NCBI GenBank assembly: GCA_013812145.1
Contig: JACCTY010000111.1
Span: 1-34,452 of the forward strand
DNA: 34,452 nt
Source: Geodermatophilaceae bacterium
Lineage (GTDB): Bacteria; Actinomycetota; Actinomycetes; Mycobacteriales; Geodermatophilaceae
Direction: 5' to 3'
The notes below the pieces were generated by a model. The model had not been told where the DNA came from and made no database searches. It worked only from the letters and a program-made list of their open reading frames with translations. Position 1 is the stretch's first letter. Each line of letters starts with the position of its first letter. Made by a program: the position numbers and the translations under genes. This document shows, piece by piece, positions 39 through 5,513 of this stretch.

Positions 39-1319
39 ATGCATGCACGAAGAGCACGACTCGTCATTGCGGCGGTGGTTTCATCCGTCTGCGTCGCAGC
101 CTCGGCCGTCCTCGCCGGTCCGAGCCAGGCCGCTGCTCCGGTAGCTGCGGACCCGGCCGTGATCACAGAGTGGAACGTCATCGCCGCGCGCACCATCTTC
201 ACCGAGAACCTCGTGGCGGTGCCGAGGTCGGGGTTGTACTTCGGCTTCATGCACATCGCGATGTACGACGCCGTCGTGGCGATCGAAGGCGGGTACGAAC
301 CGTACGCGTATCGGGCGGCTGCACCGCCCACCGCCTCCGCCGAGGTCGCCGCCGCGACCGCCGCATACCGGGTACTCAAGGAGTATTTTCCGGCCTCAGC
401 AGCCAATCTCACAGCCGACTACACGGCGTTCCTGGCCGGCGTACCCAATGGTGTCGGGAAGGTGCAGGGAAGGCTGGTCGGCGTAGCCGCCGCAGCCCGG
501 ATCATCCAGTTGCGACAGAACGACGGCCGCAATGCGATAGTGACACTGGACGTCGAACCCGCACCCGGTGTCTGGCGCCCGACGCCACCGGCCTTCGCTC
601 CGATGCTTGCGGCCGAACTGGGTTTCGTCACGCCGCTGCTGCTCGAATCTGCTATCCAGTTCCCGCTGCCCGGGCCGGACGCCCTGTCCACAGTCGGGTA
701 CGCGCGGGACTATGTGGAGGTGTTGCGGTACGGCGCGAAGGAGGGCTCTCGCCGCACCGCGGCACAGACCGACACCGCCTTGTTCTACAGCGACAACGCC
801 ATACTTCAGTTCCAGACGGGTCTTCGTGACCAGGTGACACGTCGTGGGCTCGACATCGTCGAAAGCTCGCGGGCATTCGCGCTGCTCGGGACCAGCACCG
901 CCGATGCCCAGATCGCATGCTGGCGGGCGAAGTATGACTACGCGTACTGGCGCCCGGTCACGGCCATCCCGCTGGCAGGCACCGACGGTAACCCGGCGAC
1001 CCGGCCCGACGCGGACTGGACTCCGCTCACCGACACCCCTCCCTACCCCGAGTACACGAGCGGGCACGCCTGTGTCACCGGAGCCACGACCGGCACCCTC
1101 AGCCACCTGTTCGGTGCGGACAGCCTCGACTTGAATCTCTTCTCAAACGTGACCATGACGACGCGGCACTACGACACCGCCGATGCCCTGGATCGGCAGA
1201 CCATGAACGCCCGGATCTGGCTCGGACTGCACTTCCGCAAGGCGATGACCGACGGCAATGATCTCGGTCACCACGTGTCCGACTGGGCGAGTTCGCAGTA
1301 CTTCCAGCCAACCGGCTGA
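39..1319 (+). CDS. Secreted vanadium-dependent haloperoxidase / PAP2-superfamily protein
   Basis: This is a complete 426-residue protein. An Arg-rich start, a hydrophobic stretch and an Ala-rich cleavage region near residues 30-33 indicate Sec export. The vanadate/phosphate pocket of the family is intact: Lys298 and Arg305 seven residues apart, the Ser341-Gly342-His343 motif preceded by PYPEYT, and Arg392 with His398 six residues apart. This spacing matches that known for vanadium chloroperoxidases. Members oxidise halides with hydrogen peroxide or act as acid phosphatases on the same fold, and sequence alone does not separate these. A GGAGG ribosome site at 26-30 lies 8 bases before the ATG. 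The next gene runs the same way with a short gap, but no functional link is evident. I am confident of the family and not of the halide or substrate. Confidence 0.85.
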   Translation: MHARRARLVIAAVVSSVCVAASAVLAGPSQAAAPVAADPAVITEWNVIAARTIFTENLVAVPRSGLYFGFMHIAMYDAVVAIEGGYEPYAYRAAAPPTASAEVAAATAAYRVLKEYFPASAANLTADYTAFLAGVPNGVGKVQGRLVGVAAAARIIQLRQNDGRNAIVTLDVEPAPGVWRPTPPAFAPMLAAELGFVTPLLLESAIQFPLPGPDALSTVGYARDYVEVLRYGAKEGSRRTAAQTDTALFYSDNAILQFQTGLRDQVTRRGLDIVESSRAFALLGTSTADAQIACWRAKYDYAYWRPVTAIPLAGTDGNPATRPDADWTPLTDTPPYPEYTSGHACVTGATTGTLSHLFGADSLDLNLFSNVTMTTRHYDTADALDRQTMNARIWLGLHFRKAMTDGNDLGHHVSDWASSQYFQPTG

Positions 1320-1383
1320 CGGTCAGCGTCGCGGTGATCTTGAATCCATGATCGTGGGTACGGTGTCGCCATCGGAGGTCGCC

Positions 1384-3972
1384 GTGGCTGCATCGCGGGT
1401 CGTGGAGTTGCGGGTACACGGCGTGTCCGGAACGCCGGCGGAGGAGCTGCTGGATGCTCCGCACGTCAGGCAGGTCGCCGGCGATGACAAGGCCGGTTTC
1501 TACCGACCCCGGCTGAGCGACGAGCCGGAAGATCTCAGCGTCGACGGCCCGGCACCGGCGTCCGGTCCGCAGCTCGAGGGCTATGCCTGGGGCGGACTGA
1601 CCTCGGGTGCGCCGACGCGTGCGTTGTGGCTGCTCCTGCTGCCGTTCACGCTCACCAACGTCGCCCCTCGGCTGCGACCGGCCGGACCCAAGCTGGAGTC
1701 GGGCCAGCTACGAGTGAACCTGTGGTGCTTGTGGCTGTTCAGCCGCCTGCTGGCCTTGTCGATGACGGTGCTCCTCGTCGCCGCGCTGGCCGGTGTCGGT
1801 ATCGACCTGATCGGGTGGCAGTGCGCCGGCTCCCCTCGCGCAGGTGTGGCCAACTGCTCGCAGGCCTCGCCCGAGTGGCTCATGGGACCGCTGCTTCGTC
1901 TTCCCGTCGAACACCGCCTGGCTGCCGGTGCCCTGGTGCCGTTGGCCGTCCTGACCATGCTGTGGCAACTGAGCGGTCGAACAATCAGCAACTACGAGCG
2001 GGTCACGTTCGAGCAGCGGGACGACAGTTCGGACGATCCAGACGACATTGAGCCCGCACTGGGCTCGAACTGGATGTGGCGCAACGAGAATCAGGTACGG
2101 CGGCTGCGACACCTGCACCTGCAGGCGGGCCTCGTCACCACGCTCTGGATCGTCACCGGCCCCCTCTACGACCCGTGGGTCGACTTCCGTCCTCCCATCG
2201 CCGTTCTTGCCGGCGCATACATCCTGATCATGTTGTGCCTACCGTCGTACACCGGCCGCGGTGAACACCCCCTCTTCACGTGGCTGAACCGAGTTGTGTG
2301 GGCGTTGCTCCTCGCCTGCACAGCCGGTACCGGGAAACTGCTGCTGCGTGGGCAGCAGCTCGTCGGCGAGACGCACGTCGGAAGCCTGCCCGGCTACCCG
2401 GAAGCGGGACGGGCGCTCTTCATGGGCCAGCTCGGCCTGCTCGTTGCGTTCATATTGTCGATCGTGGTCATGATCTGGCGCGGGCGGAACAATCGGGATC
2501 GCCTGGCACCCAGATCATTGTGGGACGGATCAGCAATACTCTTCGCGACCATGGGCGTCTTTTTGGGCGCTGTCTTCTCGGCCGGCGTGTACGTGTTTGC
2601 CACCGCCTGGCTGCGAACTGGGAGCCTGAGGCCGACCTTCGAGGATGTTTCCGCCCGAGTCAGCCGTTTCGTGGTTCCCGACATCATTCGAGAAGCCGCA
2701 CGGGCGTACGCCATCTCGGTGGCGATACTCGTCCTGGTGGTCGCCGTCCTGCTCCTGTGCTTCGTCGGGAACAAGCTCCTGCGCGGGCTCAGGAGCATCC
2801 TGCCGCGCCGGCTGCGAGACAAGCTGCCGCACTGGTTCACAGTGGGTTCCTGGCCGTCCAAGAAGTATCGGACCGCGCTCGTCCATGACTACGGGACAGC
2901 CGCGGTAGACGACGACCCGCCGCGCGCCCGGCAGGTCGCGAGCATGTTCTGGCTGGCCCAACGAGTCGACTACGCGCATCGATTTCTTGCCGGTCTCCTG
3001 CTTATCGGCCTGGTCATCACGATCCCCTTCGCGCTCCTCGCCTGGAAGCCGTCCTGGCTGTGGCACTGCGCGCGCCGATGGCACGACTACCCGGACCTGC
3101 GGGACGGTACGGCCGCGACCTGCGGCAGTGGCCACTTCTACTATGACTGGCTGCGCGACGGGTTCCTGTCGGCACGTTCGCTGCAGGGAACCGGAGGCTA
3201 TCTCGCCGTGTTGACCCTGCTGCTGCTCGTCGGACTCGGTGCGGCCGCCTTCCGCGTCGCCAAGACCCGCCGATCAATCGGCATCCTGTGGGATCTGGCC
3301 TCGTTCTGGCCCCGCTCGGCTCACCCGTTCGCAGCACCGTGCTACGCCGAGCGAGCCGTCCCAGACCTCGTCACGCGGGTGGATTGGTACACCAATGAAC
3401 GTCGCCGATCGGTGGTGTTGTCGGCGCACAGCCAGGGAACCGTCCTCAGTGCGGCGACCCTCTTCCAGCTGGACAAGCAGGTCCTTCCGCAGGTGGCCTT
3501 CTTGTCCTTCGGCTGTGTACTTCGCCGGCTCTACGCCCGATACTTCCCGGCCTACTTCTCGACGGCAGCGATCGAGGAAGTCCAGACCTTGCTTACCGGC
3601 AGCGATCGCCGGGTGCGCTGGCTCAACCTGTGGCGGCACAGCGACTACCTAGGCGGACAGGTGACCGCGGGTCCGCCTCCCGCCATCACGGCCGGTGAGT
3701 CGGTGCAAGCGCCCGACCCGGACATCGAAGTCGAGTGCATCGACCCCAGGTGGGACCGCCCGCCCGGGGACACCCAATACCCCGCCGCCTCCCGGCATTC
3801 CAACTACTGGCGGGACCACAGATTCGCGGTCGCTGTCAGGCGGCTCGCCGCCATGCTGCCGAAGTCAGCCGAGGCCGAGCGCCACGAGGGTCGCGTCGGG
3901 TTGCTCGACATGGATCAGGTGCGAGGCGTCGGGCACGTTCGTGATCCGGGCGTTCGGAAGGTCGACTCGTAG
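1384..3972 (+). CDS. Large multi-spanning membrane protein with lipase-like AHSQG motif
   Basis: I chose the GTG at 1384 because GGAGG (1374-1378) sits 5 bases upstream; ATG 1348 is an alternative without a good ribosome site. The 862-residue product opens with a short conserved-looking stretch (VELRVHGVSGTP). About eleven hydrophobic segments follow, with charged loops between them. The soluble C-terminal part carries A-H-S-Q-G around Ser683, a typical alpha/beta-hydrolase nucleophile elbow. Asp and His candidates follow in the HSDYLGG and RHSNYWRDH segments. The N-terminal HG could supply the oxyanion-hole motif. If so, one hydrolase site is split by some 600 residues of membrane sequence. 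Its 3' end overlaps the convergent hydrolase gene by 108 bases. I recognise no named family; a membrane-embedded lipase or esterase is an inference. Confidence 0.7.
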   Translation: MAASRVVELRVHGVSGTPAEELLDAPHVRQVAGDDKAGFYRPRLSDEPEDLSVDGPAPASGPQLEGYAWGGLTSGAPTRALWLLLLPFTLTNVAPRLRPAGPKLESGQLRVNLWCLWLFSRLLALSMTVLLVAALAGVGIDLIGWQCAGSPRAGVANCSQASPEWLMGPLLRLPVEHRLAAGALVPLAVLTMLWQLSGRTISNYERVTFEQRDDSSDDPDDIEPALGSNWMWRNENQVRRLRHLHLQAGLVTTLWIVTGPLYDPWVDFRPPIAVLAGAYILIMLCLPSYTGRGEHPLFTWLNRVVWALLLACTAGTGKLLLRGQQLVGETHVGSLPGYPEAGRALFMGQLGLLVAFILSIVVMIWRGRNNRDRLAPRSLWDGSAILFATMGVFLGAVFSAGVYVFATAWLRTGSLRPTFEDVSARVSRFVVPDIIREAARAYAISVAILVLVVAVLLLCFVGNKLLRGLRSILPRRLRDKLPHWFTVGSWPSKKYRTALVHDYGTAAVDDDPPRARQVASMFWLAQRVDYAHRFLAGLLLIGLVITIPFALLAWKPSWLWHCARRWHDYPDLRDGTAATCGSGHFYYDWLRDGFLSARSLQGTGGYLAVLTLLLLVGLGAAAFRVAKTRRSIGILWDLASFWPRSAHPFAAPCYAERAVPDLVTRVDWYTNERRRSVVLSAHSQGTVLSAATLFQLDKQVLPQVAFLSFGCVLRRLYARYFPAYFSTAAIEEVQTLLTGSDRRVRWLNLWRHSDYLGGQVTAGPPPAITAGESVQAPDPDIEVECIDPRWDRPPGDTQYPAASRHSNYWRDHRFAVAVRRLAAMLPKSAEAERHEGRVGLLDMDQVRGVGHVRDPGVRKVDS

Positions 3973-4794
3973 CCGCCGCGCGTCGATGGCCGGCACGAGC
4001 CGGTCTGCCGTCCCGTACGCCGCCCACACCGGGCACCGCACCCCCGACCAGGACATGCCGTCGCGGTAGCGGAAGCCGTTGCGAGCCGCCGCGCGGAACG
4101 ACGCCGGCCGCAGGCCGGCGACGAGATGGTCGAGAACGGACTGCCGAACGGCACCGGGGTGGGCGACGAACGGCGACAGCAGAGGTCGCAGGAGCCTGGC
4201 GCGCGACGCCGCCGTCAGGGCGGCGACGCCGAGACGGCCGGTCATCGCGAGTCCGTACTGCAGGCCGAATATTGCGGTGGCGACGCCCCCGGCCAGCCCG
4301 GCCGGCAGGCGGCCGTTCATGGCGTCGACGACCGAGTAGTAGGGACCAGCCGCAAGATGCAGCGACTCAACCCAGCGAGCGTGCCGCACCGCCAGGTCCG
4401 CGACGACCAGAGTCCCCATCGAATGCCCGACGAGGCGCAGCAATGAGAAGCCCATGTCCGACCGCGCGACGTCCAGGAGCACGTCACCCACCTCGGAGAT
4501 GTCGAGCCGACCTCGCAGGTTCTCCGACCTCCCGAAACCCGGCAGGTCGACGAACAGCGACGGGCCGAGCTCCGCGCCGCGTCCGATCGCAGCGCGCACG
4601 AGCGGGCCCCACGACGCCATGTCGTCGTGGACGCCGTGGACGAAGACCGTTCCCCGCCCACCTCTGGTCGTGCCATGTCGGAAGCACTGCACGCGGCCGA
4701 ACGCCGTGGCTACGGTGAACTCGACCCCCTCGATCAGCGTGGGCAGCGGCGTCACGTCGTACGGGCAATAGGTCCCCGTCATCGACGTCGCCAT
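3865..4794 (-). CDS. Alpha/beta hydrolase
   Basis: This is a 309-residue soluble hydrolase of ordinary alpha/beta-fold length. The HG oxyanion motif is at residues 53-54 (FVHGVHDD) and the nucleophile elbow G-H-S-M-G has Ser125. The probable acid is Asp264 (YGTADRLVP) and the probable base is His292 (ASHLIHVEQP). The start is either ATG 4794 or ATG 4782. The latter forms an ATGA overlap with the stop of the upstream kinase-like gene, which suggests translational coupling; neither has a strong ribosome site. It is the last gene of a minus-strand set with the kinase-like protein and the MenB/BadI-like hydrolase. It could be a thioesterase or ester hydrolase acting with that set, or a general serine hydrolase. 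The substrate cannot be read from sequence. Confidence 0.85.
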   Translation of the reverse strand: MATSMTGTYCPYDVTPLPTLIEGVEFTVATAFGRVQCFRHGTTRGGRGTVFVHGVHDDMASWGPLVRAAIGRGAELGPSLFVDLPGFGRSENLRGRLDISEVGDVLLDVARSDMGFSLLRLVGHSMGTLVVADLAVRHARWVESLHLAAGPYYSVVDAMNGRLPAGLAGGVATAIFGLQYGLAMTGRLGVAALTAASRARLLRPLLSPFVAHPGAVRQSVLDHLVAGLRPASFRAAARNGFRYRDGMSWSGVRCPVWAAYGTADRLVPAIDARRLRVDLPNARITNVPDASHLIHVEQPDATLVALGLG

Positions 4795-5513
4795 GGGCCG
4801 CGGAGCGCGTCGAGCGCGAGCGTCACAATCTCCTCGGTGCGCCGACGCTGAGCGTCCTCGACGAGCACGACGTTCCAGCCATGCGCGGACAGCAACGGCA
4901 GCGTTGTCTGTCGCCGGCGCTTCAGGTGCCCGCAGAGCGACGCCAGGTCCGTCACCGGTTCGGCAGCGCCGGCGAATCGGCCGATGAGCCACGGCAGCCA
5001 GGTCTCGCCCTCCCGGCGCACCGCCCGATCGAGTGCCTGCTCGACCGGGCCGTCCAGGTAGATCAAGACCGAGGATGTGTTCCTCAGGACATCGGTCAGC
5101 TCCTGGACGAACGTTGCGATCGTTCGCCTGTCGTGCCCCCATGCCAGCAGCGAGGGGATGAACGGCAGCAGGGAGTCGACAACCACGACATCAACACCGG
5201 CACAACACGAGTCGGCGAGATAGCTGGCCGTCGCTTCGAGCAGCAGCCGCGGCTCGACCCGACCGATGTCCCGGAACTGCTTGGCGACCGCGCCGTACGC
5301 CGGCCGGGTGAGGATGTCCTCCTCCCGGAAGTGGTCCACCGCGAAGCCCCGCTCGGCGAGCCGGGCGGCCAGGGCGGTGGCCACGGTGGACTTCCCGATC
5401 CCCGGCGCCACCCCGTCCACCGCGATGATGAGCGGCCAAGCTTGCGTGGATCCGTCGTCATTGGAGGCGATTTCGGTCGCCGGTTGACCCCAATCACCTC
5501 CGATGATGGCCAT
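4779..5513 (-). CDS. P-loop kinase-like NTPase
   Basis: This is a 244-residue protein with a glycine-rich nucleotide loop at about residues 35-43 (VAPGIGKST, Lys41). It follows a hydrophobic strand ending in Asp, as in nucleoside and uridine kinase-like P-loop proteins. The first loop Gly of the standard Walker A is a Val here. A second hydrophobic strand ending in VVVVDSLLP may serve as Walker B, and basic residues near the C-terminus (HLKRRRQT) could form a lid. The ATG follows the stop of the upstream gene after one base, and its own stop overlaps the start of the hydrolase downstream. It is therefore the middle gene of a coupled three-gene operon. The substrate is unknown; a small-molecule kinase is the best guess. 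I do not recognise a named family. Confidence 0.7.
   Translation of the reverse strand: MAIIGGDWGQPATEIASNDDGSTQAWPLIIAVDGVAPGIGKSTVATALAARLAERGFAVDHFREEDILTRPAYGAVAKQFRDIGRVEPRLLLEATASYLADSCCAGVDVVVVDSLLPFIPSLLAWGHDRRTIATFVQELTDVLRNTSSVLIYLDGPVEQALDRAVRREGETWLPWLIGRFAGAAEPVTDLASLCGHLKRRRQTTLPLLSAHGWNVVLVEDAQRRRTEEIVTLALDALRGPWRRR

Follow-up and report, generated by a model that had tools for sequence, protein, structure and literature searches.

In PGAP1, the glycosylphosphatidylinositol (GPI) inositol deacylase, a serine α/β lipase domain with the triad Ser327, Asp407, and His443 is described as being cradled by a ten-helix membrane domain, positioned at the luminal interface and linked to the membrane domain via Loop1, with jelly-rolls present in addition (PMC10761859). 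PMC11878206 and PMC13334175 cite Lazniewski et al. (2011) for a group of transmembrane lipases, Abhydrolase_9 (PF10081) with Abhydrolase_9_N (PF15420), and a 229-residue helical insert just before the catalytic His has been reported for DUF6792 (PF20591), where it was called unique in the α/β hydrolase superfamily (PMC11878206). The subject of the present analysis is a gene for an 862-amino-acid (aa) protein, located in a 34,452-nucleotide stretch of DNA from a Geodermatophilaceae bacterium (contig JACCTY010000111.1; the whole stretch is referred to as the window, and the gene product as the window protein). Whereas in the membrane lipases compared here a membrane domain is attached to an intact hydrolase, the hydrolase fold of this protein appears to be opened, with a domain of more than 500 residues threaded through it, which, if true, is an unusual way of building an enzyme into the membrane.

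Like PGAP1, the window protein is predicted to combine a serine α/β hydrolase with a ten-helix membrane domain, but the lipase of PGAP1 is luminal and the passages of PMC10761859 that deal with it describe no interruption, whereas the fold of the window protein is predicted to be interrupted and cytoplasmic. The Abhydrolase_9 proteins and the window protein are both putative membrane lipases of the same superfamily, with the difference that the transmembrane domain of the former, as far as PMC11878206 describes it, is separate and fused to the hydrolase, rather than inserted within the fold. DUF6792 shares with the window protein a helical domain inserted into the hydrolase fold; its insert, however, is in the same account not predicted to be transmembrane and lies between β8 and the His, whereas the predicted membrane domain of the window protein lies between β3 and β4. 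Among 40 relatives that are 24–45% identical to the window protein (alignment A1), none matched PF10081, PF15420, or the PGAP1 profile PF07819 at an expectation value (E) ≤ 1. The 2024 superfamily survey (PMC11878206) mentions membrane domains attached to a hydrolase, with no membrane-domain-interrupted fold being described in nine of its passages on transmembrane segments. Among the papers listed by searches of the open-licence PubMed Central literature for such an interrupted hydrolase, and for the motif strings of this family and of the cousin family described below, none reported it in its title or the beginning of its abstract, which is weak evidence. The protein is apparently a new and undescribed architectural variant within the α/β hydrolases.

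The AlphaFold2 model, for which an alignment of 45 sequences (A2) served as input, has a mean predicted local distance difference test score (pLDDT) of 79.9 and a predicted template-modelling score (pTM) of 0.85, and shows strands at residues 6–12, 28–33, 37–42, 63–69, 676–682, 704–709, 746–750, and 782–784, with long helices between 107 and 624. When the model was compared with solved structures by VIA-align, the overall fold of the superfamily was recovered over 160–163 residues: Lip_vut1 (6nkc) aligned with a Z of 12.5 and a root-mean-square deviation (rmsd) of 3.0 over 160 of its 172 residues (model residues 2–825), and LipA (1isp) with a Z of 12.4 and an rmsd of 3.3 over 163 of its 179 residues (model residues 4–825 on chain residues 2–176), at 13–14% identity. 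The best 50 matches by Z consist of lipases, cutinases, thioesterases, acyltransferases, an effector, and a putative hydrolase, with every one of these alignments spanning from model residue 1–5 to 823–831; lysosomal phospholipase A2, LCAT, and cutinases are among the VIA-align matches. Because lipases of 172–180 residues are covered nearly completely and from their N-terminus, the first strand of the model is needed in the place of β3. The prediction is therefore of a single fold built from the N-terminal strand together with the C-terminal part, and the insert falls between β3, which carries the HG motif, and β4. The likeness to LipA and Lip_vut1 is accordingly one of predicted fold, extending from the N-terminal strand through the part with the catalytic His, and the difference is that these are small single-domain lipases of 172–179 residues, whereas the window protein would hold about 550 residues between β3 and β4. 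That one hydrolase fold is interrupted by a membrane domain had been suggested, from the letters of the DNA, by the first-pass annotation, which had also asked for a structure prediction as a check; the model, with both ends covered by the alignments, did not refute it, and we consider this split architecture very likely.

The residues that such a fold would need for catalysis are conserved across the family of the window protein. Relatives at E ≤ 0.001 were found in 29 of 396 genomes across the phylum and in 22 of 59 nearer genomes, the own genome being counted in both cases; one of the 29 (G377, about 100 residues matched in a 398-aa frame) is probably no member, and another (G042) has a match of 50 residues, located on a short contig. 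In a collection of named genomes, a pattern for the β4 region (around residues 635–644) matched at least 593 stretches, at least 587 of which encode relatives; the best 80 of these were retained for comparison and come mostly from Streptomyces, Micromonospora, and Nocardiopsis, but also from Actinoplanes, Dactylosporangium, Phytoactinopolyspora, Fodinicola, and others. In A1, the invariant columns are H12, G13, W69, P87, N92, A94, H245, F641, P643, H647, P648, Y654, S683, G685, F721, and H805, with D754 and D787 at 90% or more; locus finding by the pattern inflates conservation around residues 635–644, not at the HG, Ser, Asp, and His positions. The invariance of H12, G13, S683, G685, and H805, together with the conservation of D754, makes the HG/Ser/Asp/His pattern more than chance.

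A larger alignment was drawn from 135 pooled open reading frames (ORFs), the window's included, of which the 126 of at least 640 aa were aligned and 121 are intact, the remaining five rows having a broken frame or no start (L075 twice, L077, L128, and L166); closely related species occur among the rows, which are therefore not independent. In L075, L128, L133, L161, and L166 the family gene lies in two overlapping frames, reflecting sequencing errors or broken genes. Among the intact rows, S683 and G685 are each present in all 121, forming a nucleophile elbow of the small-x-nucleophile-x-small type after β5 (HSQG, HSHG, HSMG, YSQG, and CHSQG in the relatives), and H805 is present in all 126 rows, the 121 intact ones included. 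D754 is found in 120 of 121 (E in L058), H12 in 119 (P in L065 and L067), and G13, in an oxyanion-hole loop of the HG type after β3, in 120, and the order Ser-Asp-His, with the acid after β7 and the His after β8, is followed by S683, D754, and H805. The HG motif placed near residue 10 by the first-pass annotation is found at residues 12–13, and AHSQG with Ser683 where it had been claimed; Asp754 and His805 supply the Asp and His candidates, and HG and [AG]HSQG proved to be conserved across the family, so that the suggested conservation check likewise brought no refutation. His12-Gly13 is, however, an oxyanion-hole-type motif and not the catalytic His. Since the spacing from HG to Ser ranges from 505 to 766 residues (median 615), a large insert is present in every intact row. 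One divergent paralogue, the second copy in genome G161 (L067:4711-7119), carries VPGI rather than VHGV as its oxyanion motif. Judged by the features of sequence and fold examined, the window protein is a member of the α/β hydrolase superfamily.

The C-terminal part had a weak match in genome G231 (E 2.1e-5), and this led to a second, cousin family, with an N-terminal VHGIGEQ or HGMGxQ followed by hydrophobic segments, an HSLGSVIAYD-like motif, FGSP, a D, and a C-terminal His. In a profile comparison by hhalign of A1 with four cousins (97.2%, E 4.4e-11), Ser683, Asp754, and His805 align with the cousin S, D, and H; the hhalign alignments span the C-terminal part only, and the correspondence at the HG end was established by inspection. 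A search with the four-cousin profile gave matches in 14 of 396 genomes, including six weak ones (L218–L223), with the genome searches for cousins being confined to one phylum; L196 (G143, a weak match) was rejected as a cousin, as it looks like an unrelated peptidase-type gene. None of the scanned cousins (L195, L206, L207, L208, L225, L227, and L228) nor the divergent L199 reached a Pfam cut-off, and the PGAP1 profile PF07819 was weakly matched, below its cut-off, by L208 (E 0.0075) and L195 (E 0.18). No relative was found in viral contigs scanned with one cousin or in plasmid records searched twice with cousins.

Between HG and the nucleophile, the seven cousins examined hold six hydrophobic segments above the threshold (L206, and L207 with the sixth at 1.13), three (L227, with the first at 1.12), two (L208, L225, and L226), or none (L228, of 303 aa, which aligns to A1 at 92.0%, E 6.5e-7, in its C-terminal part, with Ser, Asp, and His in the same order). 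Counted plainly, six of the seven have an even number; in the odd one, L227, the weak first segment may be an interfacial helix like residues 76–97 of the window protein. With zero to six segments found in the same interval, the slot between β3 and β4 seems to have accepted membrane segments of differing size, and we infer that the evolutionary direction was that of a continuous enzyme acquiring an insert. How an enzyme of 150–200 residues tolerates an insert of more than 500 is an evolutionary puzzle. In L227 (L227:1294-3627), two segments lie after the Ser and, by inspection, before the presumed Asp, with a further membrane region past the hydrolase, so that membrane segments would occupy two places of one fold. 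Two genomes of family code f2 and genus code g2 encode the cousins L225 (L225:894-2228) and L226 (L226:1604-2947), each about 445 aa long and with VHG, two strongly hydrophobic segments, and AHTRYF; where the nucleophile Ser is expected, both have GHGIG, apparently a catalytically dead version.

The window protein is likely to have serine-hydrolase activity. It could instead be a non-catalytic descendant in which the hydrolase fold is retained for lipid binding or regulation and turns over no substrate, as triads can persist for structural reasons and the GHGIG-bearing cousins L225 and L226 offer a precedent; decayed enzymes, however, usually lose their triad and oxyanion residues, whereas the family of the window protein keeps Ser683 and His805 in every intact row, Asp754 in all but one, and the oxyanion motif nearly always, which makes loss of catalysis improbable. 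A transporter or channel, with the cytoplasmic hydrolase-like domain being a regulatory or substrate-processing add-on, is about equally improbable: such a role would be in keeping with ten helices and with the invariant R121, T128, R242, and H245 in or bordering the membrane region, but conservation is lower in the membrane domain than in the other segments (mean commonest-residue frequency 0.49, vs 0.54–0.71, the value for residues 628–700 being raised by locus finding), and the membrane domain is, judging from the cousins, also the variable part. When folded alone (pLDDT 74.7, pTM 0.78), it moreover gave no convincing match to a transporter or to any other solved structure, the best being a Z of 6.8 at an rmsd of 13.1 in VIA-align and an E of 0.3 in Foldseek; scores of this kind are noted for unrelated helical models, and therefore neither a known nor a new fold is claimed for it.

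With regard to topology, the first-pass annotation had counted about eleven membrane segments, and eleven hydrophobic 19-residue peaks are indeed present between the motifs, with a twelfth over the nucleophile strand; ten crossing helices, however, fit better. Two of the eleven peaks are weak in the window protein, namely 80–98 (0.19, vs a family mean of 1.19), which is modelled as short helices 76–84 and 86–97, and 307–325 (−0.02, vs 0.99), which is modelled within one long helix of residues 297–326. The loop charges fit a crossing at 307–325 and not at 80–98, and ten crossings are read here from the model, with 80–98 being taken as interfacial; this choice rests on the model and the charges, as hydrophobicity alone would not discriminate. 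On the predicted helices, the loops on the hydrolase side carry 0.194 Lys plus Arg per residue, vs 0.060 on the far side, with the same direction in all 121 rows. According to the positive-inside rule, positively charged loops are cytoplasmic, which places the hydrolase on the cytoplasmic side because the Lys- and Arg-rich loops are on its side. Cys147 and Cys158 are both present in 101 rows and both absent in 19, with a single one in 1, and this paired retention or loss (120 of 121 rows) is the pattern that an extracytoplasmic disulfide would give, so that a Cys147–Cys158 disulfide is possible. Eleven crossings, which would leave the ends on opposite sides of the membrane and the N-terminal HG unrelated to the C-terminal hydrolase, are suggested by the eleven peaks and by the plain count of three segments in cousin L227, but are very improbable in view of the agreement of the charge pattern with ten helices in 121 of 121 rows, the joint retention of HG and HSQG, and the fold comparison, in which the best 50 alignments run from residue 1–5 to residue 823–831.

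The window protein is probably a membrane-integral serine hydrolase of the α/β fold; the likeliest activity is that of a lipase or esterase, with a lipid-like substrate at the inner face of the cytoplasmic membrane. In the proposed model, the chain would open directly with β3 and the HG oxyanion loop, exit into the ten-helix membrane domain (residues ~107–624), and re-enter the fold with β4, the AHSQG elbow bearing Ser683, β6, Asp754, and His805. As the crossings would be even in number, both halves would end in the cytoplasm and pack into one catalytic domain, closure of the fold being possible only once the membrane domain is in place. The substrate favored is an ester-bonded lipid, on account of the fold, the position of the hydrophobic insert next to the oxyanion loop, and the nature of the nearest folds (LipA, lysosomal phospholipase A2, LCAT, and cutinase), and we give a lipid or lipid-like ester of the inner leaflet an even chance. 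The stretch FWPR..HPFA.P.YAER.VP (residues 641–660) is almost invariant and follows β4, where a lid is often located; an anionic head group might be bound by the Arg and His residues of this stretch. Since the insert exits beside the oxyanion loop, the membrane domain would be well placed to hold a lipid or feed it to Ser683, and the split fold leads directly to the hypothesis that lipid is delivered to an active site in the cytoplasm; an active part of the membrane domain in such delivery is nonetheless a tentative proposal. More speculative still is the wider proposal that the two families belong to an unnamed bacterial hydrolase superfamily in which paired membrane segments (0, 2, 6, or 10 crossings as the examples are read here, one of them having a plain count of three) occupy one slot between the oxyanion strand and β4, always returning the chain to the cytoplasm. 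In this proposal, the active site would arise only after folding of the membrane domain, which would pass bilayer lipid to the cytoplasmic Ser683.

It has to be noted that several observations weigh against this interpretation. With Foldseek alone, no match reached E ≤ 0.001 (best E 0.12, probability 0.98), although its top six rows are LipA-type lipases or lipase A variants, and the fold match rests on VIA-align, a re-examination of Foldseek's list. The N- and C-terminal parts shared no stronger mutual information with each other than with the membrane domain (53 vs 47 of the top 100 pairs, at equal column numbers), a measure that is uninformative at ~74 effective sequences. The call of ten helices depends on loop borders derived from the model and on two weak peaks of the eleven; L067 and L065 have PG and PR, respectively, where HG is expected; the A2 profile compared with L206 alone reached 73.9% (E 2.8e-5); and the neighboring genes, in the window as well as in the loci of the relatives, gave no functional hint.

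Profile libraries left the family without a name, as the first-pass annotation had also done. For the window protein there was no Pfam or NCBIfam match at E ≤ 10, no PADLOC match, and two chance-level matches among PDB sequences. The 40 A1 members matched 22 Pfam families at E ≤ 1, with weak matches to Cutinase (PF01083; 9 of 40, best E 0.0087) and Lipase_3 (PF01764; 9 of 40, best E 0.0096), neither of which was matched by the window protein, and to Abhydrolase_1 (8 of 40, best E 9.9e-5). Matches of hydrolase type to the family profile were weak (best E 0.01), and those to designed helical bundles and G-protein-coupled receptors were discounted as arising via the hydrophobic middle. NCBIfam gave a phosphoglycerate mutase model for two of the 40 members (best E 3.3e-4) and the type VI secretion system effector family BTH_I2691 for one (E 2.1e-5). 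The one plasmid record with a match to the window protein was the 11.9-Mb Nonomuraea gerenzanensis NZ_LT559118, with 44% of the query covered. With at least 587 relatives and a window protein lacking any Pfam or NCBIfam match, the family points to an unannotated part of actinobacterial membrane biology.

Table 1. Positions in the window of the split hydrolase gene and of the sites along its product
Feature	Position	Strand	Details or basis
Split α/β hydrolase gene with predicted membrane insert	1384..3972	+	862 aa, GTG start
Shine-Dalgarno-like GGAGG	1374..1378	+	sequence
N-terminal hydrolase part (predicted), residues 1–75	1384..1608	+	strand 6–12 (β3), HG, short strands 28–33, 37–42, 63–69
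His12-Gly13, oxyanion-loop-type motif	1417..1422	+	conservation
Helices 76–84 and 86–97, hydrophobic, conserved (P87, F88, N92, A94)	1609..1674	+	probably interfacial, from charges
Inserted membrane domain (predicted), residues 107–624	1702..3255	+	ten transmembrane helices as read from the model
Cys147 ... Cys158, first far-side loop, possible disulfide	1822..1857	+	co-occurrence in rows
C-terminal hydrolase part (predicted), residues 626–836	3259..3891	+	β4 onward
β4 and very conserved RR..GILWD..(T/S)FWPR..HPFA.P.YAER.VP.L..R, residues 629–665	3268..3378	+	
AHSQG nucleophile elbow, residues 681–685	3424..3438	+	Ser683 codon 3430–3432
Asp754, proposed catalytic acid	3643..3645	+	conservation; aligned with cousin Asp
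His805, proposed catalytic base	3796..3798	+	conservation; aligned with cousin His

The gene lies in an open frame of positions 1258–3972 and is single-copy in its own genome (assembly of 3.08 Mb in 186 contigs). The GTG at 1384 was taken as the start because GGAGG precedes it, by five bases; the starts of the relatives were assigned by rule (the closest start, or else the position six residues ahead of HG) and therefore lend no independent support to this choice. The extra residues from the alternative longer starts, ATG 1348 and ATG 1258, would include no hydrophobic stretch, and a signal peptide is not apparent in the 862-aa protein, the first strand of which begins at residue 6 when counted from the GTG.

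The 12 neighbor ORFs within the window's first 12 kb show little recurrence, with an SDR-type gene having counterparts at scattered positions in five other loci and two further genes having one each. The contexts in Streptomyces, Micromonospora, and Nocardiopsis, which include a PALP enzyme, a DeoR regulator, AAA/β-helix genes, SmpB, and DUF2516, recur within a genus but largely differ between genera, and gene neighborhood was rejected as functional evidence, as the contexts are not conserved. The gene upstream (39–1319, + strand) gave weak Pfam matches below the cut-off, including the VCPO second domain and PAP2 (E 0.15 each), and presumably resembles a vanadium haloperoxidase-type protein. 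The convergent neighbor (3868–5142, − strand) encodes an ordinary, continuous α/β hydrolase (Abhydrolase_6, E 2.6e-13).

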